Shown here: positions 15,968 to 51,900 of the stretch, one piece after another
Position numbering within the stretch: position 1 is the first letter of the stretch
How the letters are laid out: each line of letters starts with the position of its first letter
From: Sabellastarte sp. h YS-2021
Lineage: Eukaryota; Annelida; Polychaeta; Sabellida; Sabellidae
Length of the DNA: 64,000 nt
NCBI GenBank assembly: GCA_964017235.1
Contig: OZ024929.1
Span: 26,223,464-26,287,463, forward strand
Reading direction: 5' to 3'
Program-made: the position numbers and the translations under genes
The notes under the pieces: generated by a model
The model's database searches: none
What the model saw: the letters and a program-made list of their open reading frames with translations, nothing else
Told to the model about the DNA's origin: nothing

Positions 15968-18900
15968 GTTTCCTGTCAAGTGCAGTGTCTGGTTTCCCAT
16001 GTTTAAGTCCAGTGTGGTACTCAAATTACTTCAAAACTGACACTGGTAGATGTTGACATTAAATAATGCTTGCCTTTTCAACACCAGTATGAATATATCC
16101 AACAGTATGATTTACAATGAAACTGTGTTACAGTAAAAAGTGAAGTACTAGTTAGTTTCAAAATATATACATGTTGTCACTGCCAGTAATTCAAAGTGGT
16201 TCTAGTATTGTAGAAATGAATTGCCGTCACTGTTGCACACCCTGTACTTGCTGTTGTGCATGTTTTGAGAAAATAGTCTTTCACACTTTTAATAACACAA
16301 GAAGACCTGTCATTTATGCAATTTTCTGTGTAAACTATGTTTATAAATAGATTTCTTTTATAATAAAGACAGTTGAATTCAGATTTATGTAACATCATAA
16401 ATAATGCACATATATTATATTACAGTTAAATCCTATGAAAATTGAAATTATGAGAAAACTACTTGTACTTATCCAGGACCGGGACCCAGTGTCACAAAGC
16501 CTCCTGGAGATAAAGGTCACCTTAAATTTGAGGATTTCCTTCAATTTATCCCTCCTTGTCAGTTTCACAAAGCTTTCTTACTTCAAAGAAACCTTGAAAT
16601 TTGAAGGAAATTCCCTTAAATTTTAAAGAAGCAAAGGACCTACCTTAAATTTGATCAAATGTCCTCTGAGGAATGTTTAATACTTTTAAAGAAAATTTGC
16701 TCCCTCCTAAAGTTTGAATGAAAATCTTTGAGAGTTAAAGGAAGTTTTGTGAACCTGAATTTTAAGGTGGCCTTCCAAAAGAAGAAAAAGAATGGCCATT
16801 ACTTGAAAGAGGCTTTGTGACATCGGGCTCAGGTATTTACTACTATTTAAGGTTAATTGCACTCAGTAGGGCTGCACTTAAAGGGTTTGACTGTATAAAA
16901 CTGTGAGAGTGATTTCTCCATTATTAAATTATTAACAGAATTTCTTGTATTTTGTTTCAGCTGGCACCAAATGTAAATGACTCGTCTACATATGCTTACT
17001 TTTGACCTCTCTTTGTTTTATTAATTAATAACATAGGACTTTGTTAATCTTTTCATCTGTTATAAAATTATTTTCATTAAAGTTTCTGTATATAATTCAG
17101 TTTTTCATAAATGCCCAATAATTTGAATGCTTTTACAATAAGAGAAAAACATAGAAGATAACGTAGAAATGAAAAGTGTAATCAGCTTTCACTAAGCAGA
17201 AGCTTTTGAAATGGTTTCTAATCTTACTGCTTTCCAAGCTTTTCTCCAAATTATGTGAAGAGGTGTTAGGCCATATACTTTACTTTCATTTCCCAAATTA
17301 TTAAGATTGTAGAAGTTACACAAAAACTGGACTTGAAAAGGAAAATCGTACTTGGTGTGAGGAAGATGTTAATGATTTTGTGTGGTTCTGAGTTTAGGGT
17401 GATATGGTAGTTGGCAGTGCATGGTATGTGACAGTATGTGTTACAGGTGGAGGTATTGTGTTGAAGAGTGTTCATGTTGTTTGCATTAGGGTGATGAAAT
17501 GAGTGGTACTGTGTACCCCATGGTGTTTCAAAGAGGGCACCATGTTAAGGATTGTTTCATATTTAAGTCATAAGAATCTTGCATTCTTTGGTGAATTTCC
17601 ATTGATGAGATGTTGTGTGAATACAGCACATTAACAAAAAATGGCTTCGTATGATAATACAGATAGAAACTCCATTATCCAAACGTGCTGGGAGAGTAAC
17701 ATTTTGCTCAAACTAAAGCCTCTCTTACATCCCATCATATATGTATATGTTACAGTGAATATGTGAAGCTATTACTTGACAAAACCAGTGAATACGCGTA
17801 TTCCCTAAAATTTTCAGTGAATACGCGTATTCTCTAAAGTGGTCAGGGAATACGCGTATTCCCTGAAAATTTTAGGGAATACGCGTATTCACTGGTTTTG
17901 TCAAGTAATAGCTTCACATATTCACTGAACTGAAATCAGTGAATATGTGTAATGGTTCATCTGTTTTTAGTGCTTTTAAATATTGAACTTTTGTGTAGAG
18001 ATTATATGCAAGTTGCTTTTTTAAATAATTAACCTTTGGGTAGAGATTATATGAATGTTGTGATTTAAATTTCATGTTTATATATCCTGCTCAAAAAGTC
18101 TTAACTTTAACTTTTAGTTTGACACAGTTGTCTATTTTAGAATATTTAAAATAGACGGTTGCTTTGAATTAATAGAATTTTTAGTTATGGATCCCTGACA
18201 AATATTTTTGACACAAAACACATATTTAGTTGGAGACTGAATGGCTTCCCTTGAATTTATAATAACAAAGGGATTATTTCTTTAACCTTACCCACCTGTT
18301 TGACCACTGTAGAATGGATGACTTCTCTGTAATTGAAAGTATTAAAGATCATATAGCAAAATAAAGACAAATCACAGGACTGGGAAGCCAATTGGATTAA
18401 CTGAGATTGTTTAATTATGTCCACCCCACTGGGGGGTGGACATATTATTTTTGCTTTTTCCGGCGTCCGGCGTCCCACTTGGTTTCCAGACATTTTAGGC
18501 AACAGTTCTTATCCTATCTTTACCAAATTTGGCAGGCAGGTTTATTGGGTTAATAGCTTGTATGGGATTGCTTTTGGTGATGATAGCTCTATAGTTAACT
18601 GAGTAATAGCTACTTTGCTACTTTTGAGTAGCTCTTTGGTTTCCAGACATTTTAAGGAATGCTATTAAGCCTAGCTTTCTGAAATTTGGTATGGAGGTTC
18701 ATTGGGTTAATAGCTTGTATGGGATTGCTTTTGGGGGGAATTGCTTCATAGATGAGTGAGTAATTAATTAAATAAATGAGTAATTAGCTATTTTGAATAC
18801 TGAAAAAGGCAAATGTGCTCATATCTCCTAAACCGTGCGAGATAGAGCGATTTCGTCGAAATTTTCGACCCACAGGGTATCTAAGGAATGTACTCTTCGC

Positions 18901-21900
18901 AATTTTCAAAAAAATTTTCCCCTCCCCAAAAATGGCGGCCATTTTGAATTTTCGAATTTTGGCCAAAAATGGCAAAACACAAATTTGCTTCTATCTCCTT
19001 AACCGTGCGAGATAGAGCGATTTCGTCGAAATTTTCGACCCGCAGGGTATCTAAGGAATGTACTCTTTGCAATTTTCAAAAAATTTGCCCCTCCCCAAAA
19101 ATGGCGGCCATTTTGAATTTTCGAATTTTGGCCAAAAATGGCAAAACACAAATTTGGTTCTATCTCCTTAACCGTGCGAGATAGAGCGATTTCGTCGAAA
19201 TTTTCGACCCACAGGGTATCTAAGGAATGTACTCTTTCAATTTTCAAAAAATTTTCCCCTCCCCAAAAATGGCGGCCATTTTGAATTTTCGAATTTTTGC
19301 CAAAAATGGCAAAACACAAATTTCCTTCTATCTCCTTAACCGTGCGAGATAGAGCGATTTCATCAAAATTTTCGACCCACAGGGTATCTAAGCAATGTAA
19401 TCTTTGCAATTTTCAAAAAATTTTCCCCTCCCCAAAAATTGCAGCCATTTTGAAATTTCGAATTTTTGCCCAAAATGGCAAAACACAAATTTGCTTCTAT
19501 CGCCTTAACCGTGCGAGATAGAGCGATTTCGTCGAAATTTTCGACCCACAGGGTATCTAAGGAATGTACTCTTTTACAATTTTCCAAAAATTTTCCCCTC
19601 CCCAAAAATGGTGGCCATTTTGAATTTTCGAATTTTTGCCAAAAATGGCAAAACACAAATTTGCTTCTATCTCCTTAACCGTGCGAGATAGAGCGATTTC
19701 GTCGAAATTTTCGACCCATAGGGTATCTAACAAATGTACTCTTGCCAATTTTCAAAAAATTTTCCTTTTCCCAAAAATGGCAGCCATTTTGAATTTTCAA
19801 ATTTTTGCCAAAAATAGAAAAACAGGAATTTGCTTCTATCTTCTTAACCGTGGAAGATAGAGTGATTTCATCAAAATTTTCGAGCCAACCAATGCAAAAA
19901 GGCATGAAGGTGAAATAATTTACATCTACACTAATAAATATTTAAGCATCATTGATATATTTTACAAATGAAACAGGGTCTTGTAAGACTACTGTACAAT
20001 TTTGGCAAAAGGTTCATGGGGTGGACATTACACATGATAATGTGTGTTCTTCTATGCTATCCTGTTTCTATTCGCATCTACTATCAACAGGGCGTCCTAT
20101 TTTTAGTTAATACTTTAAGCCTTGAGAGAAAACTGCTATGACAAGTTGGTGTCTAATAAATTATAAGCATTCATATTGTTTAATAAATAAATATGTAATA
20201 TTGTGAATAGTCAGCCTCTTGTATTATATTTTGTCAAAATATATTTATATTTTAAATTCAGTACCAAGCTACATTGCTTCCCCTGACTCTCAACACAATC
20301 ATCATTATTGGCTATTACTGAATTGTATACTGGACAAAGTGGACATTTATACAGTTAAATCAAAGGACTAGGAAACCAAACAGATTGAGATGTGTCATTT
20401 TCTAACCCATTAAAACATCATTTAATATTTACAAAATAATACACTGTTCTTGAAAATCTTTAGTTTTTTTAAAATCAGTTGCAGTTTGTCTTGTCTTCAC
20501 AACTACATAAAAGTTAGTTGCAGAGCTCAATGTTAACAGACATGAATACTGCCTTTTGGCAAAGTGATATTTTTGTGTTTTTGTTTTGTTTTTTTTTCTG
20601 TTTTTTTTTTCGTTGTTGTTATGGTACAGTAAAAGTTATGTAAAATCACTGTTGGGAGATTTTAATGGTTATAGTACATAAACACACACGAGTCCATAGC
20701 AAAAGTTATTTTTTATATATTATAAGAATACAAAGCTGCATTCTCAACAATTTCTAGTTAGGGAATACGCGTATTCCCTGATCATCAAAACCAGGGAATA
20801 CATGTATACGCGTATTCCCTGATTACACATATTCACTGTAACATATATACACATAAGTGTACTGCGAATACTGTTGAAAAATACAAGCATAGCCTGCTAG
20901 TGGGATTGCAGAGATTTGCACATGTAAACAAGCTGCATTCATCCAACAAGAGTGTTACTACTTGAATATCCGAGAACAGACTGTGACTAGCTACAAGCTA
21001 CACAGAGGGTTTATGTACATGCAAGGCACACGTGCATGTATGATACAACATGTGCAATTTGTATAAGTAAAGGGTTAGGACCTACAACACTAGCAAGGAA
21101 AATGCAGGTGCCCAAGCCTCTCGTAAATTCCCCTTGATACATGGATGTGTTTGTAGCCACACTGCATGCATGCAGAGAATAATGTGCATGTCAATTTTTA
21201 TGACGGGGTCTCTGCGACCTTGAAATTATGTTATAAAATAACGTGTAGGTTTAATGTCCCTTGCAAATGAACCCATTTTTATGTCGTCACTCTGCGGCGT
21301 GGGCGTACGCGTCCGTGTGAACAACTTCTCCTCCAAAACTACAAGGCCTAGAGACGTGCTGTTTTTTTTAAAAGATACCTTATCTATCGAGGATGAAAAA
21401 TTGTTCAAGGCATGCAAATCTGTATGTTCGTCTGTTTGCTAGAGACATTACAAGGGGGGTACCCCCACCAAAAGTGTGAAAATTTCAACACTTAATCACA
21501 ATTTCTCAGTGACTATTGCAGGGATTTCTCTCATATCTTGCATATATGTACTAGGCCACAGGTAGATTCTCTTGTGTGAGTATGAGACCTGGATCTGTCT
21601 TACTTTTTTTTAAATAAATTTTTTTAATAATTTTTAATGCATTAAAATTCATGAAATCATGCACAAAATCATTTATAACTTGAAAAGTGTTGCATTTAGA
21701 GCATTTTGTTAAAATATGTTATTCAGCTACTTTTTTCATAGCTACAATATGGTGAGTAAGTTGGGTGCCTGTCTCAATAGCTAAGTGAGTAATAGCTACT
21801 TTTGGGCTTTTCAGTAACTTCCATCATGAGTAAAATCACTTGTAACTTAAAAACTATTGCATTTAGAGAATTTCGTATAAATATGTTATTCAGCTACTTT

Positions 21901-24900
21901 TGGGTCAGCTATAACATAGTAAAATTTTAGACCTGTAGCTCATGGCATAGCTGAGTAATAGCTACTTTTAGGTTATCACTGTTGAGTAAATCGCTTATAA
22001 CTTCAAAACTATTGCATTTAGAGAATTTCGTATAAATATGTTATTCAGCTACTTTTGGGTCAGCTATAACATAGTAAAATTTCAGACCTGTAGCTCATGG
22101 CATAGCTGAGTAATAGCTACTTTTAGGTTATCACTGTTGAGTAAATCGCTTATAACTTGGAAACTATTGCATTTAGAGTATTTTGTTTCAATATGTTATT
22201 CACCTATTTTGGGATCAGCTATAACATAGTGAAGTTTCAGATCTGTGGCTCATTGCATAGCTGAGTAATAGCTACTTTGAAGTTCTCACTATTGAGTAAA
22301 TCACTTGTAACTTAAAACCTATTGCATTTAGAGAATTTCATATAAATATGTTATTCAGCTACTTTTGGGCCAGCTATAACATAGTGAAATTTCAGATCTG
22401 TAGGTCATGGCATAGCTGAGTAATAGCTACTTTAAAGTTCTCACTATTGAGTAAATCAGTTGTAATTGGAAAACTATTGCATTTAGAGTATTTTGTATAA
22501 ATATGTTATTCAGCTACTTTTGGGTCAGCTATAACATAGTAAAATTTCAGACCTGTAGCTCATGGCATAGCTGAGTAATAGCTACTTTTAGGTCATCACT
22601 ATTGAGTAAATCAGTTGTAACTTCAAAACTATTGCATTTACAGTATTTTGCTTAAATATGTTGTTCACCTACTTTTGGGTCAGCTATAACATAGTAAAAT
22701 TTCAGACCTGTAGCTCATTGCATAGCTGAGTAATAACTACTTTGAGGTTCTCACTATTGAGTAAATCAGTTGTAATTGCAAAACTATTGCATTTAGAGAA
22801 TTTAGTATAAATATGTTATTCAGCTACTTTTGGGCCAGCTATAACATAGTGAAATTTCAGATCTGTAGGTCATGGCACAGCCGAGTAATAGCTACTTTGA
22901 AGTTCTCACTATTGAGTAAATCAGTTGTAATTGGAAAACTATTGCATTTACAGAATTTCGTATAAATATGTTATTCAGCTACTTTTGGGTCAGCTATAAC
23001 ATAGTAAAATTTCAGACCTGTAGCTCATGGCATAGCTGAGTAATAGCTACTTTTAGGTCATCACTATTGAGTAAATCAGGTGTAACTTCAAAACTATTGC
23101 ATTTACAGTATTTTGCTTAAATATGTTGTTCACCTACTTTTGGGTCAGCTATAACATAGTAAAATTTCAGACCTGTAGCTCATTGCATAGCTGAGTAATA
23201 ACTACTTTGAGGTTCTCACTATTGAGTAAATCAGTTGTAATTGCAAAACTATTGCATTTAGAGAATTTAGTATAAATATGTTATTCAGCTACTTTTGGGC
23301 CAGCTATAACATAGTGAAATTTCAGATCTGTAGGTCATGGCACAGCTGAGTAATAGCTACTTTGAAGTTCTCACTATTGAGTAAATCAGTTGTAATTGGA
23401 AAACTATTGCATTTACAGAATTTCGTATAAATATGTTATTCAGCTACTTTTGGGTCAGCTATAACATAGTAAAATTTCAGACCTGTAGCTCATGGCATAG
23501 CTGAGTAATAGCTACTTTTAGGTCATCACTATTGAGTAAATCAGTTGTAACTTCAAAACTATTGCATTTACAGTATTTTGCTTAAATATGTTGTTCACCT
23601 ACTTTTGGGTCAGCTATAACATAGTAAAATTTCAGACCTGTAGCTCATTGCATAGCTGAGTAATAACTACTTTGAGGTTCTCACTATTGAGTAAATCAGT
23701 TGTAATTGCAAAACTATTGCATTTAGAGAATTTAGTATTAATATGTTATTCAGCTACTTTTGGGTCAGCTATAACATAGTAAAATTTCAAACCTGTAGCT
23801 CATGGCATAGCTGAGTAATAGCTACTTTTAGGTTATCACTGTTGAGTAAATCGCTTATAACTTGGAAATTATTGCATTTAGAGTATTTTGTTTCAATATG
23901 TTATTCACCTATTTTGGGGTCAGCTATAACATAGTGAAGTTCCAGACCCGTGACTCATTGCATAGCTGAGTAATAGCTACTTTGAAGTTCTCAATGTTGA
24001 GCAAATCACTTATAATTTGAAAGCTATTGCATTTAGAGAATTTAGTATAAATATGTTATTCAGCTACTTTTGGGTCAGCTATAACATAGTAAAATTTCAG
24101 ACCTGTAGCTCATGGCATAGCTGAGTAATAGCTACTTTTAGGTTATCACTGTTGAGTAAATCACTTATAACTTGGAAACTATTGCATTTAGAGTATTTTG
24201 TTGCAATATGTTATTCACCTATTTTGGGGTCAGCTATAACATAGTGAAGTTCCAGACCTGTGGCTCATTGCATAGCTGAGTAATAGCTACTTTGAAGTTC
24301 TCACTGTTGAGTAAATCAGTTGTAATTGGAAAACTATTGCCTTTACAGAAATTTGTGCAAATATGTTATTCAGCTACTTTTGGGTCAGCTATAACATAGT
24401 GAAATTACAGACCTGTAGCTCATGGCACAACTGAGCAATAGCTATTCTCAGGCACTGACTGTTGAGTAAATCGGCTATAACTTGAAAAATATTGCATTTG
24501 GAGTATTTTGTTAAAATATATTGTTCACCTACTTTTGGGTTAGCTATAACATAGTGAAATTACAGACCTATAGCTCATGGCATAGCGGAGCAATAGCTAT
24601 TTTCAGGTTCTCACTATTCAGTAAATCAGTTGTAACTTGAAAACTATTGCATTTACAGTAGTTTGCTTAAATATGTTGTTCACCTACTTTTAGGTCAGCT
24701 ATAACAGAGCAAAAATTCAGACATGCATAGCTGAGTAATAGTTACTTTGAGGTTCTCACTCTTGAGTAAATCAGTAGTAACTTGAAAACTATTACATTTA
24801 GAGTATTTTGTTAAATATGTTATTCACAGACGTTTTGGTCAGCTATAACATAGTGAAATTGCAGACCTCTATGTCATGGCATAGCTGAGCAATAGCTTCT

Positions 24901-27900
24901 TTCAGGTTCTCACTGTTGAGTAAATCATTGTATCCAACCTGTAGGAAATCATGGGCTGGGAATCTGTTAATATGGTCCGATTTGACCTTGGAACCCTCCT
25001 TCAAGGTCAAATGAGGATAGCCAAACATAAAAGTGCTTATAACTCGCTTATTATTGGTCCTAGAGGTTTGGAATGAAAACCAACCTATAGAAAATCATGA
25101 GCTGTGAATTTTTTGGTGTGGTCGGATTTCACCTTGGACCCCTCCTTCAAGGTCAAATGAGGATAGCCAAACTTAAAAGTGCTTATAACTCGCTTATTAT
25201 TGGTCCTAGAGGTTTGGAATGGAAAACCAACCTATAGAAAATCATGGGCTGGGAATCTTTTGGTGTGGTCAGATTTCACCTTAGACCCCTCCTTCCAGGT
25301 CAAACGAAGATAGCCAAACTTAAAGTGCTTATAACTCGCGTATTATTGGTCTTGGAGGTTTGGGATGGTAAACCAACATATAGGAAATCATGGGCTGGGA
25401 TTCTTTTGGTGTGGTCAGATTTGACCTGGGACCCCTCCTTCAAGGTCAATTGAGGATAGCCAAACTTACAATTGCTTAGAACTCGCTTATTATTGGTCCT
25501 ACAGGTTTGGGATGGTAAACAAGCTACAGGAAATCATGGGCTGGGAATTTTTTTGTGTGGTCGGATTTGACCTTGGACCCCTCCTTCAAGGTCAAATGAG
25601 GATAGCCAAACTTAAAAGTGGGAGCTTATAACTCGCTTATTATTGGTCCTAGAGGTTTGGAATGGAAAACCAACCTATAGAAAATCATGGGCTGGGAATC
25701 TTTTGGTGTGGTCAGATTTCACCTTAGACCCCTCCTTCCAGGTCAAACGAAGATAGCCAAACTTAAAGTGCTTATAACTCGCGTATTAGTGGTCTTGGAG
25801 GTTTGGGATGGTAAACCAACATATAGGAAATCATGGGCTGGGATTCTTTTGGTGTGGTCAGATTTGACCTGGGACCCCTCCTTCAAGGTCAATTGAGGAT
25901 AGCCAAACTTACAATTGCTTAGAACTCGCTTATTATTGGTCCTACAGGTTTGGGATGGTAAACAAGCTACAGGAAATCATGGGCTGGGAATTTTTTTGTG
26001 TGGTCGGATTTGACCTTGGACCCCTCCGTCAAGGTCAAACAAGGATAGCCAAACTTAAAAAGTGCCTATGACTCACTTATTATTGGTCCGAGAGGTTTGG
26101 GATGGTAAACCATCCTAAATTCTTTGGCTGGGAATCTTTTGGTATGGTCAGATTTGACCTTTGGACCCCTTCTTCATGGTCGAACGAGGATATTGCATTT
26201 ATAGTATTTCTTTAAATATTTTTAACCTACTTTTTACACTTAAACAATTACCTTGTTACTTTATTTCATAATACCATTTGCAGGGCACAACTTTTTTGTC
26301 CTTTTTTACTGTCAGCTTCGGAATATCTTTCGAACATGCTGTTCAGTTACCATTTACTGTATTTCTGTACAGCCCTTTCCCTGATAATTATACTTTCCTC
26401 TCATTATCACCATCACAAATCAAAAACATTCAGTCAGCTGACACAGTGCCTGTTCACGGGCACTCTCCTCTTGTTTACTGTAACCTGGACGTACGTCCAC
26501 ATACGATGGGATATAAGAGAGGCTAAAAGCTTGTAAAATAAAGACAGAGGTATTTTGTATACAGTAGGAAATAATGAGTTGGTGACAGTGGTACTGTGTG
26601 AACTCAAGGTTGTGTAACAGAGGTTACATTGTATTGACAAATGACTGGCTTTAATTAGGCTTTCAGCAATCCAGGGAAGTTTAGATTCATTTGAGAAAGA
26701 AATACAAAGTATTGCAATGACGAGATCTCAACATGTGAATCTTTCCACTGTGAGCAAAAATAACAGATTTCAGAAGAATGCACCCACATTATAAACTTAA
26801 TTATGGCTACTTGTTTGCAATATATTACCTTTTAATATCCATAGATAAATTTGTAAGAATTTTTTTTTTTTTTTTTTTTTTTTTTTATGATTTTTGTCCC
26901 ACCATCATCATTTTATTACCCCACAGCCCTTAAGGGCTGTCGGGGTATTGTTTTCACCCAAGGTGTCCGGATGGGTGGGTGGGTGGGTGGCGGGAAGAAG
27001 TTTGTCCAGCCTGTATCTCCGAAACCGTAAGGTGTAGGAAGTTGATACTTGGTAGGGACATTGGTTAGGGCGTGTAGGTGTGCCACATCATAGTGTGACC
27101 TTGAATTGACCTTTGACCTTGCCGCAGTGACCTTGAGTTTGAAAATCTTGTCCGGGCTATATCTCAGAAACCGTAAGGTATAGGAAGTTGATACTTGGTA
27201 GGGACAGTGGTTAGGGGGTGTAAGTGTGCATCGTCGTGGTATGACCTTCATTTGACCTTTCCGTAGTGACCTTGACCTATTAAATCTTGTCCGGGCAATA
27301 TCTCGGAAACCGTAAGGTGTAGGAAGTTGATACTTGGTAGGGACATTGGTTAGGGGGTGTAGGTGTGCAATGTCATGGTGTGACCTTCATTTAACCTTTG
27401 ACTTTGCTGTAGTGACCTTGACCTATAAAAACTTGTCCAGGCTGTATCTCCGAAACCGTACGGTGTAGGAAGTTGGTACGTGGTAGGGATATTGGTTAGG
27501 GATTGTAGGTGTGCAACGTCATGGCGTGACCTTGATTTGACCTTTGACCTTGCTGTAGTGACCTTGACCTATAAAATCTTGTCCGGGGTATATCTTGGAA
27601 ACCGTAAGGTGTAGGAAGTTGATACTTGGTAGGGATATTGGTTAGGGGGTGTAGTTGTGCAACGTCATGGTGTGACCTTGATTTGACCTTTGACCTTGCC
27701 GTAGTGACCTTGACCTATAAAATCTTGTCCGGGCTATATCTCAGAAACCGTAACGTGTAGGAAGTTGGTACTTGGTAGGGACATTGGTTAGGGGGTGTAG
27801 GTGTGCAACGTCATGGAGTGACCTTGATTTGACCTTGCCGTAGTGACCTTGACCTATAAAATCTTGTCCGGGCTATATCTCAGAAACTGTAAGGTGTAGG

Positions 27901-36900: not shown

Positions 36901-39900
36901 AGGTACAAGTTCCCATTTTTATTGACCAAGCCCCCACATTTTTCGGACATAGGGGGGAACTGCCCCCACATTTCAAAATTTCTAGAATCAACACTGATGT
37001 GCACTCTTCTTTTTTTTTCTTTTTTTTTATATAAGTGTGGCACATAAAATACATTTCAAATAAATTGAACATAAATATATAATGCTGCAAAGTAATGTAA
37101 AAAAAAACCCAACTTTAATGTAATTTGAAATAGTTAATGTTTTTGGGGTGCACTCCTTTGTAGAACTCCTGCTGAGGGATCTCGCCCCACTAGTCGAGGG
37201 TCTGTTGGGAGTGGTCCCCCTCCACGCCCTGAGTACTCCGAGTCATTGCCCACATCTAGACCAGGATCTGGTGGCCGCCCATCCAGTAAGTACAAGTAAA
37301 TTGTTTTACACAAATCTGTTGAACTCATCTGACATATTGTTTGGGTGCTGCTCCTTAGTCAGTGATATTTCTGCAATAAAGGTTTGGTTTATGAATAATT
37401 TTGAAAAGCATAGCAGTGACTGTGAAATCCTCTAAGAAATGTGAGGGGTACGATAATGGAGTTTAAGGCCAACAATACTAGCGCGAGTAAGTAATTACCT
37501 CAAAAAAAGTTTTGTTTATTTGATCCTTTGCCACTTTTATAGGTTTATGACAGTCTGGTAAATAGGGAAGAAGGAGAAGCAAACTTATTGCAGGATATTT
37601 ACCCCAGTCTGAAACTAATATCTCAAAACAGGTCTTAGTTGTACAAAGGAAATAGAGTAATGTCCTCTTGAAGATTTTCATATTGTAAACATGTATCGTG
37701 CATCTGATGTAAGAAGTGTGGTTGTTAACGCTCAACAAGAGGAGAGGGTTATTGCAGTCAGTTTTGTTCTGTATTTCTGTCCTGTCTGTACACCGTTTTG
37801 CTATTATAAACATCGATTTCAAATTTGGTGGGCAGATTCTTCATGGGATACACAGAGATTCCTATAAATTTTGTGAAATTGTAGTGAAAATTAATGTCAA
37901 GAGATAGTTTTTGGTCAGGTTGCAGGTAACCAACCCTCCTATTAGATTAGATGTGTCCGAAGTCTGTACGTCTGTCCCGTCTGTCAGCATTTTGGTTTCC
38001 AGACTCTAACTCAAACACAAATCCCTAGATCAATTTGAAACTTAACAGGGTGGTAGGGCACCACCTAGGCTAGGGTGCTTTTGAAATTGGTACCATTTGG
38101 AAAGCAAGGTGACCACCAAATTCTGTTTCCTGACACTAACTTGAAGATGCTTCAGCTGATCGATTTAAAACTCAACAGGGTGGTAGGGCACCATATAGGC
38201 TAGGTTATTTTTTAATTGGTGCCATTCGGAAAACAATCTCATAGTGTTCAATGTGCTGTTTTCCCCAGGCTGTAAGATGCAAGCATATCTGATACTATTT
38301 TTACCTCACAGCCCTAATGGGCTGTCGGGGTATTCTCATCCATGGTGTCAGAGTGGGCGGGCAGCGGGAAAATGTTTGTCTGGGCTGTATTGCAGAAACT
38401 GGAAGGTGGAGGAAGTTCATACTTGGTAGGGACATTGGTTAGGGGGTGTAGGTGTGTAATGTCTTGGTGTGACCTTGTTTTGACCTTTGACCTTGCCGTG
38501 GTGACCTTGACCTATAATATCTTTTCTGGGCTATATCTCAGCAACTGTAAGGTGTAGGAAGTTGATACCTGGTAGGGAAATTGGTTGAAGGTTGTAGGTG
38601 TGCAGTATCATGTTGTTATCTTGATTTGACCTTTGACCTTGTCGTAGTGACCATGAGTTTAAATTCTTGTCTGGGCTATTTCTTGGATTCCGTAAGATGT
38701 AGAAGGTTGAGACTTGGTAGTAACATTGGTTAGGGGGTATAGGTGTGCATCATAGTGTGACCTTTAACTTTGGTTTTGGTAAAATATGTTCACCTGCCAT
38801 ATTTGAGAACTGTTTCTCTTATGACAAATATGTATAGATTTTCCAGTAAGTAAAATTACAGCTTCATAATTTTTAGTTTACTGTTTTATTGCGTTAATAC
38901 ATCTTACTAGTGGACAGATGCATTTGTCTGGCGCCCTGATGGTCTCGCCATACGTTAAAAAAAACGTCCTGAGCTGGGCTCTGGCCGGGACCGGTAGTGT
39001 CCTGTTCATCGCCAGGTAGCTGTGTAGCCTCCCTGCCAGTGTACTGCGCTTGTGCGTGCATGCGCACTTCCTCTTTTTGTTTGGCGCGAAGAGAGTTAGT
39101 CAGTTTTTTTATAAGCTGAAGTAAATTATCTTGTTTGTGTGGAAAACGTTTGTTATTCTCAAGAATTTTGTGTTCAGGATACAGTTGAATTATCATGGCA
39201 TCTCCAGGAGAGTTTAAGGGGCAGAGGAGAGGTTTGTGTGGCCATATTATGGCTGCATTTGATTTACATGAAAAATGCGCGCGTTGTCATAAAAAGAAAG
39301 TGGGAGATGATCCTTGTGTGAAAGGAAAAGCTTGTAACATTTGTGAAGGTTTTACTGATGCACAACGCAATACATTGGCCACCCTATCTTAAAAGATTTG
39401 AAAGGACAAAAAGGCAGGTCCATTCAGTGCGATCACATCCCAGTTTTTGAGAGTAATGTAGCAGCACCAGATACGCCCAATAATCCCTGGAAAGGCAAGC
39501 ATCCTAAGAAACAAGCTAGGATCTCTGTGGCCATGCCGCCGGACGATTGGCTCTGCCAAAAGCTAGAAAGATTGAATACTACTGTAGCTGAAGGCTACCC
39601 TTCAAGAGCACAAGATTCGGCTGGCCTCAAACGTGAGCAGTTTGTTAAGATCCCGAAAAGTCAGAGTAGATGGTATCAAATGCACACTATTAAACTGGAG
39701 GGTCCTCATCGTCCCGGAAAGAACTTATTTAGTTGGAGCAACACAGAGGTCAAAGTTAATTCTCAATTTCCTAGGATCATTAAGACTTCCTCTTATTCTC
39801 CAGCAGGACCACCTTCCAGACCCATCTCTCAGGATTATTTGTGTCACTGGGAAAGGTGTGCTAGAGAGGGGAGTTACATAGTGAACAGTGCTGCTGGGTT

Positions 39901-42900
39901 CAATCAGTGCTCATCCGAACTGCAGGAAGGGATTTCTAACAATGTGGCTTTTCTCTCTGCAAAAATTAACAAAGGCAAAGCTCCTAAAGAAGTCACAGAG
40001 GCCCTGAAGGACATTAAAGATTACATGGCGTTTCATCAGAACGTGTCAGTTGTCATGGGAACAGCTTTACAGCACCTGGCGGACAGTCTTTTTGTGAACT
40101 TGACAAATTTAGTGCTCATCCGTCGTGATTCTTATTTAGAGCATGTTAAACAGGGCATGAAGCCGGATACTTGGAATTTGCTGAGAAATGCCCCAGTTTT
40201 TGTGTATGGCCTATTCCCTGACTCTGTTTTGTGTACAGCGGAGCAAGATATTACTAAATTTGAGTCTGCAGGAGTTGCTCCAGTGCCCGGTCCGGGCGCC
40301 TCGCATACTCCAACCGGAGAGGGAATTTTAGGTACCGCCCGTATGAAAGGAGAGACACCAACAGAGGTTCAGGTCGAACTGATCAAGCCCAACAGCCATG
40401 GCGCCAATTTTCTAGAAATCGAAACAGGGGCCGTGGACGTGGTAGAGGTTCAAAGTTCAAACCCTCGTTTTTCTAAGTTGAGAGGTCTCAAAACTTACAA
40501 GTGACAATCACTGTGTTTTTCCAACCAAGTTGAGTGTAGAAATAAGCAGGTTGGGTTCAATGTGTCAAGTAAAACAAACTGTAAACCATTCAGTGTTAGA
40601 CAGTGTAAGATTTCTCAAACCAAAGCAGACTTTGATAGGGCAAGATCCCAAACAGGCTGTATCTTGTATAGGTGTTGTCAGTCATGTTCCTATTGTAACT
40701 TTACACGGGCAGCCGCAAAGGAAAGGCTTAAGCCCCGGTCAGTATTTGAACAAAATAAACCTTGTCAAAGGTGTCTCTTGTGTAAATCAATGTCTTTCTG
40801 CTCCTATTGCTCCAAATATTCCCAATGTTGCCATAGAGATCAGTGTCGGGGGAAGGCTTCACAGATTCTGGCAAGTTTGGCAGAAATTGGGTGCGAATCC
40901 CAGAGTGGTGTCCATTTTGAAAGAAGGCTATTCTCTGCCCTTCCGGGAAGGCCACCACTCAGCATGTTTCCCTTGATTATAAGCAAGTACGCAAACCCGC
41001 TCAAAAACAAGTCTCTCACAGAAGCTTTGGCCTCCTTCGTTCAAAAACAGGCTGTCGAGAGAGTGGTTGTCAGGTGCTCACTAGCCTTTTACAACCGGCT
41101 CTTTCTGGTCCCAAAACCCAACAGAAAATGGTGACCAATCTTGGATCTCAGCCACTTAAATCTGTTTATAGAAACAAAGACATTCAAAATGGAGACTCCA
41201 GAGACCATAAGACTGTCCCTCCACAAAGACCAATGGGTGACCTCGCTGGACTTCAGCGATGCGTATTTCCACATTCCAATAAATCACAGGTCCAGGAAAT
41301 ATCTAAGGTTTTACCTAAACAAACTTTCCAGTTCACTGCTCTTCCCTTTGGATTGGCAACAGCCCCATTGGAATTCACCAAAGTGGTCAAAGAGGTGAAG
41401 CTTATGGCTCAAGCCAGAGGTATCAGGATCCACCAGTACCTAGACGACTGGTTACTGAGAGCCCCATGCCAGGAAACTTGCCTACGACATACCAGACCCT
41501 CTTGGCCTGTGCTGCGATCTGGATTGGGTGGTCAACATGCAGAAATAAGAGCTGACCCCTCAGCAGGATTTCAATTTTGTCGGCTACCGGTTCGACCTAT
41601 TGACCGGTCGGGCCTTGCCCACTCAAGAAAGATGGTTGACCCTCCGGCAGAAGTTACAATTGCTCAAGACCAAGGACAGCTGCACAGTCAGACAGTTCAT
41701 GTCTTTGATAGGTCTACTCACAGCCACAGAAAAGCAGGTCTGGTCAGGTCACCTTCATATGAGGCCCATTCAATGGCACCTGAAGTGACACTGGCACGTT
41801 CCGGAGGTGTTGGAAAAGATTATCCCATTGCCAAAATCTCTACACCTGCACCTGGATCGGTGGTTAGAAGAGAAAAATGTCATCCGGGGGCAACCGCTGC
41901 ATCTCGTAGGCCATGCTCTACAGATGTTTACAGAAGCCTCAAACGAAGGTTGGGTCACACACTTAGAGGACTTTACTGCAAGAGGCGTCTGGTCAGAACC
42001 AGAAAGTCGCCTCCATATAAACTTTCTAGAGTTGAAAGCAGTGTTCCTGGCCCTCAAGGACTTCGAGCATCTTTGCAAGGGTCAGATTGTGTTGATAGCC
42101 ACGGACAACACCACTGTGGTTTTGTACATCAACAAGGAGGGCGGTATGAGATCCGGCTCTCTATGTGCCGGATAAACTGCCCTCCTCTGGAGACTTCTGT
42201 CTTGGTGCCATCCCAGGGGAATAGTCCTGAGGGCAAGACGCATTCCAGGCCGCTTGAATGTAATCACGGACAAATTGTCCAGATACAAACAAGTGATACA
42301 CGGAGTGGTCCCTATCTAAGCAGGTGTTCAATCTCTTGTGCTCCAGGTGGGCCCGGCCACAAATCAACTTGTTTGCAACCCGGTACAATCACAAACTGCC
42401 TAAGTTTGTTTCACCGGTACCAGATCAAACAGCCTGGACAGTGGACGCCTTGAGTCTCCAATGGGAGAATCTGGATGTTTACGCCATCCCACCAGTCTCA
42501 TTGCTCAACGAGGTGGTATCCAAGGTCATGGATCAGGGTTGCAGCAGAATGATCTTGATTGCACTGGGATGGCCCAACAGCTGGGTTCTGGACTGTCAGT
42601 GCAAATTCCCTTTGTTCTTCCTCTACAACCAGATCTGGTGACACTGTTCAATGGACATCCGCACCAGAATCCCAAGAATCTGAACTTGCATGCGTGGCTC
42701 CTAGAACCTCCACTATTCAGAAACAAGGTTTCTCTGAAGTGGCAGCAAGGATTGAGGCTCCTCAAAGATCTTCAACCAGAGCAGTCAACAAATCGAAGTC
42801 GGCCATTTTTGTCAAATGGTGCAGGGCAAAAGAGGTGGACTTCAGGTCGCCCTCTGTAACCCAAATTGCGGATTTTCTGTTGCACCTTTTTCAGGATAGA

Positions 42901-45900
42901 AAATTGCAACCCAGCACTGTAGAAGGCTATAGGACTGCTATTGCTGATATGGTAGGCAATGACAAGTTAAATATCAGCAAAGATGAAAATTTAACCCGCT
43001 TGTTGGACAGCTTTCATAGAGATAAGCCTAAGGGCAGACGAGGAATTCCCACATGGAGCCTCTCTCTTGTGCTCCACCAGCTTACCAAGGCTCCCTTTGA
43101 ACCTTTGCGGAAGGCTCCTCTTAAACTCTTTTGAGACAGTCCTTCTGTTGGCTTTAAGTTCCGGCAAGAGACATAGTGAGATTCATGCCTGGTTATACAA
43201 AAACATCCGTCATCAGGAGAATTAGAGCAACGTCTCTCTTTATCCTCCCGTTTTCCTGTCCAAGAATCAGCTGGCTAGGGAGGGTCCCTCTTGTGTGGCC
43301 CCAGTGGTTATACCAGCTTTAGCTCCAACTTTGGACAAATCCTTCCTGGAGGATAAGAGTCTTTGTCTGGTGAGAGCCTTGTGTTACTACCTGGACAGAA
43401 CCAAGGATTTGCACAAGGGTAAAGACCTAGTATTTGTGATATTGTTCCTGCTACCATCTCCTCCTGGATCAAGCAAACTGTTCTTCTGTGCTACCAACTC
43501 TCTGATGAGGAAGCCCAGAACCTGCATCAAGTTGGAGCCCATGATGTTTGGGCTTTTGCGGCTTCTAAGGCCTTCCAAGGGGCGGGGCCTCATTGGACCA
43601 GATCCTCTCAGCCTGCTATTGGAATGCCCATAATACCTTTACACAGTTTTATCTGAAAGACGTGGCTTGGGCAGATACAGAACTCTACCACTTAGGCCCT
43701 GTGATAGCTGACCAACAGGTCCACAAATGGTATAGTATTATTACTATTGTAGCAAAGCACAGGAATGTATATAGTGTACATATTTTGAAAAAAAAAAGAA
43801 AGAAAGTCGTCTACACTTGGTTCTGGGCTGCCATGAAACCAAAGTGGGCCCAGGAGTATAGTGATAGTAACTTCAGTTCCTGTTCTTCCTCCTCTACTAG
43901 GTGGGTCGGAACTCTAGTCTCCCTCTCAGTTCTCCCTGTACACTCAGGTCGAGTTTGTACAAAGAAAAAGGGGGGGGGGGGGGGGGGGGGGGAGGGTGTT
44001 TTGCTTAGGGCTGGTCGACTTAACCATTGCCTCAGTCACCCTTATTACTAGTCAGAGTTCTGGGAAATTTCCCCTTATTCAGCTACCCTCCATCCACTGG
44101 GTAGTTATTCTGCATCTGTCCACTAGGTAAGATATATTAACGCAATAAAATGGAAAATTTAATAGTAAATTAAATTTTTGTAAGTTAATACCTTACCTAG
44201 TGGACAGGGGGACTCCCACCTTTCCTTCCCCGCTATTCTAAGATAAAAAAGGTGACTTTCTAAATTAACAACAAAAAGAGGAAGTGCACATGCACGCACA
44301 TGCACAGTACACCGGCAGGGAGACTACACAGCCATCTGGCAAATGAACAGGACACTACCGGTCCCGGCCAGAGCCCAGCTCAGGACGTTTTTTTCTAACG
44401 TTTGGCGAGACCAGCAGGATGCCAGACAAATGCATCTGTCCACTAGGTAAGGTATTAACTTATAAAAATTTAATTCACTATTAAATTTTCCATTTTATTG
44501 CGTTAATACATCCTATCCAATGGACAATAGCTTATCCGGTCGGCGCAGACCGGCCCGCCAAACGTCAGAAAAAGACGTCCTGTGTTTCCACCGGCCAGGC
44601 CGGTCCAGTGCTGTGCACTCGCCAGATGGCGTGTGGTACTTCCTTCCTGTCTAGACAGCGTGACGTCATAGCATCTTTTTCGTTTGGCGCATGCTTGTGT
44701 ACACGGAATTTTTTCAACAGAACTTTAACTTCAGATTTTTATTATTTTGGTGAGAATTGTTTTATAAACTTGTATCAACATTGTTCAGGGAGTATATAGA
44801 ACGTTTTGAACTTATTATTTTGCTGCCATCAGATCATTATGTCTTCTCCGGGCCAGAAACATGGTAGCTGTGGCCACATCATGGCAAGTTTTGACAGCCA
44901 TTGTTTCTGCGCACGCTGCAGAGAGAAGGGTAAAGGCACGGACCCTTGCATTACCAATAATGATTGCCAGGCTTGTAATTCCTTGACTGAGGAACAACGT
45001 GTTCAGTTGTCTACCCCCAGTTATCGTTTAAAGAAAGAGAAACGTGATTTAAAGAAAGCTTCAGATACTCCCACCAAGGACTCAGACAGTTCCACCCTCA
45101 TTCACCCGTCCTCTGTGACGGTAGTGGGGGCTGTGGACGGCCAGGGTATGGTACAGTCCCCTGGTTCGAGTTCCTCTGCCAAGAAGAAGAAATCATCATC
45201 TTCTGACAAGAAATCTACTTCTAAATCCTCTACGTCTTCAGAGAAGCCGGTTAAGTCGCCTACCACTCACAGATCCTCAGCTGACGCAAGGATTGACGAG
45301 CTCGACCAGAAATGGTCGGTTAGGTTTAACAGACTAGAGGCTATCTTGCTTGCAAAGACTATGGATAAGGAACCGACTTTCTCCACAGTTAAAGTCACTC
45401 CTACTGCTACAGCTCCGGCTGGCATTGCCAAGTCCGCTGAACCGTTCATCAGACCGACAGCTGCTCAGACTTCAGATTTGGCTGGTGGCCGTGATTCCCC
45501 ACATAGTCAGGCTACCGACAAGTCGAGTTCTTCATCTTCTGATAGTAAGCACCCATCTTCAGATTTGCATGGTGTATCTCAGACTGCTCCTAAAGCTCAG
45601 TCGACCAGCAAGTCGCACAGGGAGAAATCGACTACCGACCGACGTTCAGATCTGCCTGGTACCGACCCACCCTCTTCTCAACAGGTCACCAGCAGGTCGT
45701 CCCCTACACCGGCCGGCCTACAGAACCAACCGGCTATGGATACTGATTCTGACTCAGATTTCTCCGACCAACCTCCAGTAGACATTTTTGTCGAAGAAGG
45801 TGAGTTGTCCGACCAGGACCCAGATGCTACCACTACTGATCCTGACCAAACCCTCTCGGAAGATCAGAATTATAGAGAGACTATGAGAGGGATCAGGTCT

Positions 45901-48900
45901 TATATGGGCTGGTCCCATATTCCTGATATGGACACAACGGCTACTGCATCTGACGACAACCCCTTCGCCGGACCTCAGTCTCAGCCCGCAGGAAAGGTCT
46001 CAGTTAAAATGCCAACCGATGAATGGTTGTGCAAGAAGATGGGCAAACTTAATCTGACACTGGTGGAGGGCTACCCCTCACGCAGTTCTGAGGCAGGGGG
46101 ACTGCTAAAAGATCAGTTTATTAAGCCAGCCCTTTCCCAAGCGAAATGGTACGGTTTTGTACCCGGCCAGCAGAAGAGTGACACTGGGACTGAGAAGACT
46201 GTTACTTCATGGTATACCGACGCCTCAAAGATCAACAGCACATACAGCCGTATTGCTAAGGCAGCAGGTATCTCTTCAACACCTCCAGCCTCCCGACAGA
46301 TCTCTCAGGACAACCTCAGACGTTGGGAGAAATCGGCCAGGGAAGCCTCTACTATATGTAATCAGGCGGCTGGGTTCAATAGGTGTTTGTACAGAGTCCA
46401 GGAGAATATGAAGGGACAGTTGAAAACTATCAAAGCAGAAATGGCCAAAGGGAAGTCTGCTTCCAAAACAGCTGATGCAGCCGACGAACTTCAATTTCTA
46501 TTGAACTTTAACACCAGCATCACTCAGGCCATGGCAAAGACCCTAGAACATTTGAGTGACTTTGTTTTTGTGTCGGTGGCCAATACGACCTTGACTCGTA
46601 GAGATTCGTATCTGTCACATCTTAAAGCGGGCATCAAGCCAGACACATTGGCTTCCCTGAGGACTGCACCTCTCCACACTCCAATGCTCTTCCCTGATGA
46701 AGCCCTCAGACAAGCTGAACAAGATATCGCCGCCTTTGAAAGCAAAGGTCAGCTTCAGTCGGGAAAGAAGGGTCGTTTCCACCCTTATGAACGCCCTGAA
46801 AAGCGTGGAGATAATAGAAAACAGGAACGACCGGCATGGAAGAACATTGGTCAGCGTGGACAAGGCAAGAAGCATAAGGGCAAGGCCTCCTTCTACTCCT
46901 CGAGACCGGCCAAGGGCCAGCAGTCTTACAAATGACAGTTATTATGTAAACAGTTTGACAACAGGACTGCTGGCCGGGAGCACCTTACAGAGACAAAAAG
47001 ACACTTTTGCAAACTTAAATGTTGTACCTTGTGTTCCTTCTGCGCCCGGGCATTCGCAAAAGAAAGAAATAAGTCCCGGGGCAGCAGTTTGTCTTTCTCA
47101 GAAAAGTTACAAAATAAAATCTGTGAAACTTGCTTCTTGTGTCACTCCATCGTCTTATGTCAAAACTGTGGTAAATGTCAAAAATGCTGTAACAAACCCA
47201 CCTGTAGGGGCCAGACTACAGAGTTTCTGGCAGGTTTGGTTGGACCTAGGGTCCAGCCACAAAGTTGTCCGGATGTTAAGGTCGGGTTACATCCTCCCCT
47301 TCCAGAACAGGCCCTTTCTATCAAGGCACCCAACGGTCATAAGCCGCTATGTGAACCACCACAGGAACAGCTACCTGTCGGAGGCTTTGCATCAGCTTAT
47401 TTCCAAAAATGCGGTGGAACCGGTACAAAACCCAAAATCTTTAGGTTTTTTCAACCGGCTTTTCTTGGTACCCAAACCCAACAACAAGTGGAGGCCCATC
47501 CTAGATTTGAGCAATCTGAATCCCTTTCTAAAAGTGGAGAAGTTCAAGATGGAAACACCAGAAACCATCAGAACTTCCCTTCAACGAGGGGAATGGGTCA
47601 CCTCAATAGACTTCACGGACGCCTACTTCCACGTACCGATACAGGAACAATCCAGGAAATACCTGAGATTTCACGTCCAGGGGCAGACATACCAATTCAA
47701 GGCCCTGCCTTTTGGTCTGTCCACAGCCCCTCTGGAATTCACAGTCATAGCCAAGGAAGTGAAGTTAATGGCCATGCACAGGGGTATAAGAATCCACCAG
47801 TACCTAGACGACTGGTTGGTGAGGGCCAATTCCCACCCAGCCTGTCTCCAGCATACCAGAGATCTACTGAAAATATGCCAGGACCTGGGTTGGTTAGTCA
47901 ACAGGGAGAAATCAGAGCTGGAACCAAAACAAGTCTTCGACTTTGTAGGTTACCAGTTCGACCTCGAGTCCGGCCGGGTCAGACCCACACCGGACCGTTG
48001 GCAGACTCTCACAGCAAAGATTCAAGCTATCTTAGCTCGGCCGACCTGTCCGGTCCGGCAGTTCATGTCCTTGATAGGTCTCCTAACGGCCACAGAAAAG
48101 CAGGTCTATCTAGGCCGCCTACACATGAGGCCCGTGCAATGGCACCTCAAGAACAACTGGAGGGTACCGGAATCATTAGAAAAGTTCATTCCCATACCCG
48201 CTTCTCTACATCCACATCTAAAATGGTGGTTGGAGGAAAACAATGTGTTGCAAGGACAACCTCTACACCCACTACGCCATGCTCTGCAGATCTTTACAGA
48301 CGCATCAAAAGAAGGGTGGGGCGCTCACTTAGAAGAACACACAGCCAGAGGCGTGTGGTCTCTACCGGAAAGCAAACTGCACATCAATTACCTCGAGTTG
48401 AAAGCAGTCTTTCTGGCACTAAGAGAGTTTCAAAACCTCTGTTCCGGCAAGATAGTACTGGTGGCCACAGACAACACTACAGTAGTGTCTTACATCAACA
48501 AAGAAGGTGGCATGAGGTCGGGCCCTCTGTGTGCCCTTCTGTGGAGAATTTTGACTTGGTGTACGACCAACCAAGTAACCCTCAAAGCCCGTCACATCCC
48601 GGGCCGGCTAAATGTGGTAGCGGACAAGCTATCCAGACTAGGCCAGATTATTCAGACGGAATGGTCTCTCCACACAGAAACCTTTCAGGCGATATGCTTC
48701 AGGTGGCACCGACCTCTGGTGGACCTCTTCGCCACGAGGTTCAACAACAAACTGCCTCAGTTTGTGTCACCGGTGCCGGATCCCTTAGCGATTGCAGTCG
48801 ATGCACTCAGCATACCCTGGGAGAACCTGGATGCTTACGCTTTCCCACCAGTGGCCATCTTGGGCAAAGTAGTGGAAAAATTACTGAACTCCCCAGGCAA

Positions 48901-51900
48901 CAGGATAATTCTGATTGCTCCGGGGTGGCCCAACATGCCTTGGTTTTGGGACCTGGTGGACATGTCCAGCCAAATCCCATTGAGTCTTCCCAACGTGCCA
49001 CACCTTCTGACACAGCCCTTCAATCAGATCCCTCACAGAAATCTGACAAATCTAAATCTCCACGCATGGCTCCTAGAGCCACAGCAATCAAGGAGCAGGG
49101 CTTCTCTGAAGCAGTGGCAGCACGAATTGAGGCACCTCAAAGAAAATCAACCAGATCAGTCTATGAGGCAAAGTGGACCATTTTTACAAAATGGTGCGTC
49201 TCTAATAAGGTGGACTTCGACTCTCCACCTTTAAAATCAGTGGCTGACTTCTTACTTTACCTCTTCGAGGTCAAAAACTTACAGCCAAGCACCATAGATG
49301 GTTACAGATCTGCCATAGCTGATAAACTGGGTAATGTCACCCTCAATATCAGCAAGGATGACAATCTCACCCGTCTCTTGGACAGCTTCCACAGAGACAG
49401 GCCCAAAGGGCGGAGGGGTATACCCTCCTGGAACCTCTCTCTGGTACTACACCAGCTAACGAAGGCTCCTTTCGAACCGCTTAGAGAAGCATCTCTGAAG
49501 CATCTTACCTTCAAGACTGTCTTCCTCTTGGCCCTGGGTTCCGGCAAAAGAAGGAGTGAGATTCATGCATGGCAAAACAAGAACATCAGGCACCAGTCAG
49601 ACTGGTCTAAGGTGTCTCTGTTTCCATCCCCCAGCTTTCTGTCCAAGAACCAGCTGGCAAAGGAGGGCCCAGAGAGTGTAGCCCCAGTGGTCATACCAGC
49701 CCTAGCTCCTACTCTGGATAGATCCCTCAAGTCTGACAGATCCCTTTGTCCGGTTAGAGCCCTACGCTACTATTTGGACAGGACTTCAGACATCAGGCAG
49801 GGCAAGGAATTAGTTTTTGTCTCCTTCAAAAAGAGTTTCGACAAGGACATCTCCCCTGCCACTATCTCCTCATGGATCAAGCAAACTGTGATCCTATGCT
49901 ATGAGCTCTCTGATCACCAAGCCCACACCTTACATCAAGTTAAGGCTCATGATGTCAGGGCTTTTGCTGCTTCTAAGGCATTCCAGTCGGGAGTCTCCTT
50001 AGAACAGATTCTATCAGCCTGCCACTGGAAATCTCATAATACCTTCACGCAATTTTACCTGAAGGATGTGGCTTGGGCTGATTCTGAGCTCTACCATCTG
50101 GGTCCTGTTGTGGCTGCTCAGCAGATCCACCAACAGGCAAATACCTAGAGGAGATTTGTACATAGCTTGTTAGTTGTACATTTTTATATACATGCACATA
50201 GTTTTAAAAAAAAAAAAAAAAAAAAAAATCTGGACGTACTTCCTCCGGGGGGTTTACTTCAATGGGACTGAATTCATCCCTCTCTTCCCCTACCTCAGAG
50301 CAGGTCTGTTTCAAAAAGGGGCGGGGGGGGGGGGGGGGGGGGGGGGGGGGCAAGGTCGACTCTGACGGCTTGTCTCCGGATAGCCGGATGATGATATTCG
50401 ACCATAGCCTTAAGGGTTAGCGACTTCAGGGTCTACCCAGGCTAAGAAAGGAATTTTGCATGGGTTCACTAGAGTTTTTAGTCCCTAATAGCTTACCCGC
50501 CGACCAAGCGGTAGTTATTCAGCTATTGTCCATTGGATAGGATGTATTAACGCAATAAAATTGCAAATTTAATAGGTAAATTAAATTTTTATAAGTTAAT
50601 ACCCTATCCAATGGACACACAAGACCCTCCCACCGACCCCGCTATCAGCTTATTAGGGGTCTAATAGGTTTAGACAACGAAAAAGATGCTATGACGTCAC
50701 GCTGTCTAGACAGGAAGGAAGTACCACACGCCATCTGGCGAGTGCACAGCACTGGACCGGCCTGGCCGGTGGAAACACAGGACGTCTTTTTCTGACGTTT
50801 GGCGGGCCGGTCTGCGCCGACCGGATAAGCTATTGTCCATTGGATAGGGTATTAACTTATAAAAATTTAATTTACCTATTAAATTTGCAAATTTATCCCG
50901 TCATCTTGCTATTGAATTGTCTTGATTTAATACTTTATCTTTACATACATTTTCTATACTTAAACATTTTTTGGACCTTTATATTACTGACACTGCTCTG
51001 AAAATAGGCCGATCTTTGTAATGTTTCACGACTTCTATATCTCATGGTGATGAAAACTATTTCCACAGGCTGTAGGGTATGAGCATCTCTGATGCTATTT
51101 TTTAACATTACAAATGTGTTGGGCTTTGGGGAGTTAGGCGCTCCCCAAGTGCTCATGTTTACAAAGTAAACATTAAGAGAGAATACATAAGGTAGATTAA
51201 ATTGTGTTAATAAATTTAATATTCAGATAATAAAAGTTTGGATAATAGGGGTTCTGTATGAAAATTTCACTTTAATGGAGCATGTGTTTGTCAGTTTTGT
51301 ACTCCAGAATACTCATTACTACAGTTGTAATACCAAAGTTATTTTAGTCCCCTTAATGCTTACCTGTCTACAAAAGCCATCGTACTTTAGCCACCCCATC
51401 TCCCATGTCTTCGTGGTATTACCCAGCTATGTTACCGAGCTAACAGGTTATCGATAAGGTACTAGATGTGGTGTAAAAAAATAACCAAATATAGTAATTA
51501 AATGTATAACAGGGTTTTGGGATTGTTGCTCAACTTGCACCGTAGAATCAGTCTACTGATAGAAATTGAGCACCAGAGAAGTTCATATTATATAAGATTT
51601 GACTACATGCTATGGTGTGGGAAAGTATACCCTGTATTTGAGTGCTGTAACACCATTCAGTATGATGGTACCTTTCAGATGTAAGTTTTCTGAAGCGTTG
51701 TTTCAGGAAAGGTATTTGCTGTACGTCGAAGACTACAAAGCTGGAACTTCAGGCATCGTGTAACTTTTTCTATTTAAGGCCAAGTTAAAGACTGTTGGTA
51801 AACAATATACAGCCTGGTTTCTGTGTACATACTTCTGTGTTGTATTCAGTTTTAGTTACTGTTTTATCTGTTCTATTTGTGTAGAGTCAAACCAGTTTAA

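Follow-up and report, generated by a model that had tools for sequence, protein, structure and literature searches.

We analyzed a window of 64,000 nucleotides (nt) from the sabellid annelid Sabellastarte sp. h YS-2021 (GenBank assembly GCA_964017235.1, contig OZ024929.1, positions 26,223,464 to 26,287,463, forward strand). In this window, a DIRS1-like retrotransposon (element 2) probably makes its tyrosine recombinase (YR) as a C-terminal extension of Gag, through readthrough of a leaky UGA at the end of gag. A decayed relative (element 1, about 38907-44446) adjoins it head to tail. All evidence presented here comes from sequence and from one genome, that of the host (1.79 Gb in 647 contigs).

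As the original prediction held, gag and YR of element 2 share one frame (frame 1) that is broken by a single TGA. This frame runs from the ATG at 44839 to the TGA at 46933-46935, where the codons read TAC AAA TGA CAG, and is open again from 46936 to the stop at 50146-50148 (1,070 codons). The same arrangement was confirmed in element 1 (TAC AAG TGA CAA), in which 209 codons (627 nt) are open beyond the stop at 40502-40504. Two further points of the prediction also hold: the reverse transcriptase (RT) lies in +1 relative to the gag/YR frame (open over 46661-49234 in element 2), and the first frame-1 ATG after the gag stop of element 2 is far downstream, at 47593. Between the gag stop and the Cys-rich domain, no frame-1 ATG was found in elements 1 and 2. 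The claim that Cys-rich coding starts right after the stop needs refinement; it begins 24 codons on in element 2 and about 40-60 codons past the gag stop in many other families.

The gag stop is embedded in a site that hardly varies, TAY-AAA-TGA-CAR-YYA, and the CA(G/A) triplet noted originally belongs to a six-base motif, CARYYA. Copies for comparison were the best 30 matches of a genome search (L009-L038), copies chosen for long frames (L039-L058), every fifth remaining row (L059-L078), and copies chosen for diversity among the scored relatives of element 2 (L079-L098). The site of element 2 (TAYAAATGACARYYA) was found exactly in 55 of 71 aligned junctions, next to a linker of varying length, and in 18 of 20 further junctions from relatives of element 2. 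Of the two non-exact junctions, one has TCA replacing TGA (L082) and the other has lost the stop through a deletion (L090). The open frame of the L090 match has 1,129 codons. Among the 19 exact rows (these 18 and element 2), no frame-1 stop was present within the stretch read. In the combined set, which omits seven near-identical copies of element 2 (L001 and L003-L008), 73 of 91 copies are exact and 84 are within two substitutions, a search that in itself favors the motif. These 84 copies have TGA in 82, the preceding AAA in 81, CAR in 82, and YYA in 82, with TTA (62), TCA (20), TTG (1), or TCT (1) as the second codon after the stop.

Genome-wide, the motif has 8,221 matches, compared with 251 for the reversed pattern as a control. 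When the stop triplet was freed, the counts were 20,075 and 12,609 (reversed); this excess is not larger than that obtained with TGA only, such that no sizeable class with TAA, TAG, or a sense codon was seen. Furthermore, all 22 family rows have AAA for the last Lys of gag, in contrast to other conserved Lys columns, where both AAA and AAG occur; element 1, which has AAG, is outside these rows. The constraint at the stop site is on the bases and goes beyond the residues alone. The site has two features of type I readthrough, namely, CARYYA directly 3′ of the stop and constrained in-frame coding beyond it (Cys-rich domain and YR). Relatives bear out that TGA-CA and downstream openness are both conserved. 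Intact relatives with early stops after the gag TGA, which the original prediction regarded as counter-evidence, were looked for, and 19 of 20 long-frame copies are open directly from the TGA. The proposed Gag-Cys-YR fusion by TGA readthrough is supported, with the conserved context being a known leaky-stop motif.

Frame 1 remains open where it overlaps RT. With synonymous shuffling of the RT codons of element 2, 30.3 frame-1 stops were expected over 766 codons and none was observed; none of 5,000 shuffles reached zero, and the third frame has 63 stops versus 56.6 expected. We tried 16 copies (including element 2 as L002) and set aside five with an RT frame open for <100 codons. All 11 testable copies have 0-1 frame-1 stops versus 9.2-33.7 expected (ten with none, and L058 with one; none of 2,000 shuffles was as low), and the third frame exceeds the expected stops in 10 of them. 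In 51 of 150 scored relatives of element 2, the open frame is exactly 1,070 codons long; one of these 51 was flagged for a TAG inside the match. It is extremely improbable that this openness arose by chance and that the copies share the stop context by common descent alone. In favor of such an origin, the families within this genome are related, such that copy counts are not independent and overstate the independence of the evidence, and L039-L058 were chosen for long frames. However, the difference between 9-34 expected and 0-1 observed stops is beyond what picking among about 14,000 candidates could give, and the motif is constant while the adjoining linker changes in length and sequence. 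Based on the shuffle tests of element 2 and the 11 copies, we rejected chance openness of frame 1.

The part of frame 1 that is constrained as protein was examined by counting changes at codon positions 1/2/3 in four pairs of disjoint families. The pairs and sets for this comparison, as well as those for the RT-frame and Lys/Tyr codon comparisons and for an earlier comparison of YR and the gag body, were chosen by hand by the analyst. The counts are 12/1/69 in gag from -600 to -361, 13/14/42 in the last 150 nt of gag, 6/12/22 in the Cys-rich domain, 7/6/11 where this domain overlaps the start of RT, and 232/85/73 over the RT body, in which frame-1 position 1 is the third base of RT codons. For YR limited to the end of the open reading frame (ORF), the third position is the highest in all 43 pairs with at least 30 changes (of 55 pairs, which share copies and families), for example, 42/20/148 (L042-L050) and 40/18/152 (L039-L042). 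In the earlier comparison, the gag-body pairs L028-L034, L042-L044, and L039-L028 were flat. According to these counts, frame 1 is under protein constraint in gag, the Cys-rich domain, and YR, and over the RT body it is only kept open.

In an alignment of 19 sequences, the Cys-rich domain shows 12 Cys columns without variation. No match was found in a PDB profile search, nor in Pfam for the domain of element 2. Pfam searches with all 19 members gave three families with one member each (E = 0.06-0.34), which we took as chance. A structure model had a mean predicted local distance difference test score (pLDDT) of 47.6 and was not used. In an element of a brown alga, a zinc ribbon has been reported, which is a parallel to this Cys-rich N-terminal part of the recombinase (PMC3537659).

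Several observations weigh against readthrough or against parts of the evidence above. The Pfam match of YR in element 2 (Phage_integrase, E = 1e-4) scores 22.5 bits and is below the cut-off of 27.1. The linker (19/22/31) shows little protein constraint in either frame, and in an earlier comparison of YR without the limit at the ORF end, three of five cases were flat. In L039, a copy with a long frame, another in-frame TGA occurs 22 codons past the gag TGA, also preceded by AAA, and a frame-1 ATG is present in some families near codon +39, where the Cys-rich domain starts. RNA folding 3′ of the stop gave z-scores near 0 in four of five sequences, the exception being L057 (z = -2.1). Lastly, the UGA junction of the retrotransposon Tca2 of Candida albicans has a promoter and directs no readthrough in yeast, according to the sections of that report available to us (PMC2194720).

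This promoter, located in the gag-pol junction (PMC2194720), is a precedent for the alternative that Cys-YR is translated from a spliced or internally promoted mRNA and that the stop context is a relic or has some other function. We consider this alternative unlikely. A possible stem 3′ of the stop in many families would be in its favor, but excision of the RT body would let frame 1 gain stops, of which there are none or one, a frame-1 ATG after the gag stop is not conserved, and the kept CARYYA bases would need another reason. Because frame 1 is stop-free over the RT body, it fits ribosomes passing through rather than removal of RT as an intron, and this avoidance of stops argues against splicing as the only route.

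In many families (e.g., L013, L031, and L057), the inverted arms of the possible stem (TCCAACC/GGTTGGA) are located about 17-60 nt past the gag stop and show some compensatory changes; element 2 lacks them. Paired cells amount to 82.0% (75.9% when shuffled) and covariation to 0.171 (0.110), in an alignment that favors the stem by omitting three of 39 sequences (38 left after thinning, and L009) with absent or different arms (L002, L026, and L061). Support is mixed, since a partner shifted by +2 gives more two-sided changes than the stem itself (23 and 21 cells, respectively), and RNAalifold found almost no energy. As the main signal, RNA structure was rejected, with folding no better than shuffles in four of five sequences. 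Use of UGA as a sense codon in another genetic code is disfavored because the gag TGA is the sole stop within a frame of 1,768 codons. For selenocysteine, no family of the selenocysteine insertion sequence (SECIS) was among the 10 matches at E ≤ 5 over 44400-50950.

Under the readthrough model, the gag UGA would terminate most ribosomes, and a minority would decode it, aided by the type I context UGA-CAR-YYA. Those ribosomes would continue in the same frame through the Cys-rich domain, which is probably zinc-binding, and the overlap with RT/RNase H of ~600 codons into YR. This would yield Gag-Cys-spacer-YR, which the Gag particle would carry as a minor component, and RT would be entered by a separate route, either a +1 slip at AAA-UGA or a conserved upstream ATG. 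The sequences show the common frame, the conserved motif, the avoidance of stops, and the frame under constraint in each segment; readthrough in the host, its level, and the Gag particle are inferred from them.

With regard to the RT, its match is in +1 relative to the Cys frame at 30 of 32 loci with a single-frame RT match (the exceptions are L019 and L054). Over the linker and Cys-rich domain of 14 copies, the RT frame has one stop versus 19.6 expected and the third frame has 139 versus 113 expected. Since the RT frame is open there, RT is probably entered at or before the gag stop. One tentative possibility is dual recoding, in which the Lys-tRNA slips by +1 on AAA-UGA to yield Gag-RT, in addition to the Gag-Cys-YR obtained by reading through the same UGA; this supplements the readthrough explanation and does not replace it. 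Besides the +1 relation at these loci and the openness of both downstream frames next to a stop-rich third frame, the held third base of the AAA before the stop points to such a slip. In the largest group, no RT-frame ATG follows the stop until +643, which is well inside RT. Competition between readthrough and frameshifting at single weak stops has been described (PMC9841425). Against it, element 1 carries AAG instead of AAA, and the upstream RT-frame ATG is conserved. The openness of the RT frame in the gag tail follows the codon make-up of gag; for 15 of 16 copies, the expected number of RT-frame stops over the final 216 nt of gag is zero. This openness does not place the point of entry and was rejected as evidence for upstream entry.

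More doubtful is that RT translation begins at a separate, conserved ATG ~150 nt upstream of the gag stop, through a shorter transcript or internal initiation, with readthrough serving YR alone. This ATG is kept in 36 of 38 copies in which the surrounding gag motif was found, and absent in two. The Tyr codon that creates it is TAT followed by G in 35 of the 38 copies and in all 15 copies of the family set, in contrast to the neighboring Tyr (TAT in 20 and TAC in 13). From this ATG into RT, the RT frame is open in copies with long frames (e.g., L040-L042). However, L013 has an RT-frame stop just past the ATG, and plain scanning is unlikely because the gag ATG and further ATGs come earlier. Between the ATG and the gag stop, the changes follow the codon positions of gag (13/14/42) and the RT frame shows no protein constraint; such a lack does not decide the matter. 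The UGA may be a three-way switch, with stopping for Gag, readthrough for Gag-Cys-YR, and a +1 slip for Gag-RT, a scheme that we find somewhat unlikely.

Apart from the frames discussed above, element 2 has characteristics of DIRS1-like elements, including RT and RNase H, inverted terminal repeats, and internal complementary regions of 68-69 nt (Table 1). Of the latter, 50521-50589 pairs with 44464-44532 (90%) and 50550-50617 pairs with 50834-50901 (96%). Its gag is homologous to that of element 1 (41% over 280 amino acids). Pfam searches of 47234-49231 found RVT_1 (E = 7e-22) and RVT_3 (E = 2e-5), both above the cut-off, and YLDD is present in the RT translation. The YR is 70-79% identical to the YR pieces in element 1 and shows HxxR followed by a Tyr, which we take to be tetrad residues of tyrosine recombinases. 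A methyltransferase domain after RNase H was not among the matches of a general Pfam scan, and no dedicated search was made for it. The head-to-tail pair spans 38907-50901 and consists of different families, which might mean that one had inserted at its neighbor's end. One long run of A and one of G are located at 50208-50350, downstream of the YR stop and ahead of the internal complementary regions. Elsewhere in the window, there are a tandem array with about 20 copies of 155-nt units (21678-24927) and a near-perfect inverted repeat with 83-nt arms, a 9-nt spacer, and 98% complementarity (17753-17927).

Table 1. Positions in the window of the features of element 2 and of the gag stop of element 1.
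Feature	Position	Strand	Remarks
gag TGA of decayed element 1	40502..40504	+	context TACAAGTGACAATCA
Left inverted terminal repeat	44512..44684	+	173 nt, 100% complementary to 50676-50848
gag ORF	44839..46935	+	698 codons, open frame ending at TGA
RT frame (+1), RT and RNase H	46661..49234	+	open frame; Pfam matches
RT-frame ATG inside gag, possible RT start	46787..46789	+	146 nt before gag stop
Putative recoding site TAC-AAA-TGA-CAG-TTA (TAYAAATGACARYYA)	46927..46941	+	sequence and copy comparison
Linker after gag stop	46936..47007	+	variable; frame 1 and RT frame both open
Cys-rich domain, frame 1	47008..47245	+	alignment of 19 sequences
Frame-1 stretch overlapping RT/RNase H	47246..49050	+	stop-free, protein constraint not visible
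YR, frame 1, through stop codon	49051..50148	+	Pfam, element 1 identity, frame-1 constraint
Internal complementary regions	50521..50617	+	pair with outer ends
Right inverted terminal repeat	50676..50848	+	right extension to about 50901

In gammaretroviruses, the stop that is read through is that of gag, and the stop in antizyme frameshifting is UGA. As proposed for element 2, gammaretroviruses make a minor enzyme fusion beyond an in-frame stop, but they use UAG and a 3′ pseudoknot to reach the replicase gene (PMC3542737), whereas UGA and CARYYA would lead here to a recombinase and not to RT. In antizyme (OAZ1), the next gene is likewise in +1 at the stop (PMC9841425); unlike antizyme, the P-site codon here is AAA. 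In Tca2, gag and pol are also split by UGA, and conservation of CARYYA as in element 2 is not mentioned in the available sections of that report (PMC2194720).

Tobacco mosaic virus has stop-CAR-YYA as its readthrough context (type I), for which natural cases generally have UAG and UGA also works (PMC3542737). In reporters with the OPRL1 context, readthrough was about 15% with CARYYA after the stop, each of the six bases seems to contribute, and UGA was similar in leakiness to UAG and far above UAA (PMC4132726). In yeast, two adenines located 5′ of the stop had been suggested to be a determinant, though a later study observed no bias of this kind (PMC9841425). The site in element 2 resembles type I cases in the six bases after the stop and in the same-frame extension, and differs in having UGA, in an extension that also overlaps a second enzyme frame, and in being known from sequence alone.

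Among DIRS1-like elements, including DIRS-1 of Dictyostelium, gag, RT/RNase H, and YR as well as inverted terminal repeats with internal complementary regions are common to those described and to element 2 (PMC3266345, PMC9210276). A long overlap of pol and YR is already known from half of 28 DIRS elements, and was found in none of the Mollusca elements (PMC3266345). In the sections available, these descriptions present gag, pol, and YR as three ORFs and do not mention a gag/YR frame with a leaky UGA (PMC3266345, PMC9210276). Readthrough in DIRS elements is not reported in the available parts of the literature searched (including PMC3266345, PMC9210276, PMC5633606, PMC8547959, PMC2685390, PMC6681497, and PMC5941688), which does not show its absence from print. 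Relatives outside the host genome were not found in viral and prokaryotic contig collections. Within the literature searched, the overlap of pol and YR is known in DIRS and the putative readthrough signal at the gag stop is the new part.

The sections of the literature covered offer no explanation of how DIRS elements express YR and RT from frames that overlap, and the conserved signal would explain recombinase expression in these families. It would also be a naturally occurring site of UGA-CARYYA readthrough, in a transposon with a very high copy number in an animal, and would show that selection can hold a long frame open for passage alone. If the three-way switch is true, a single codon would set the dose of the inserting and copying enzymes, which are encoded behind it in two overlapping frames of at least 2 kb, in thousands of copies.

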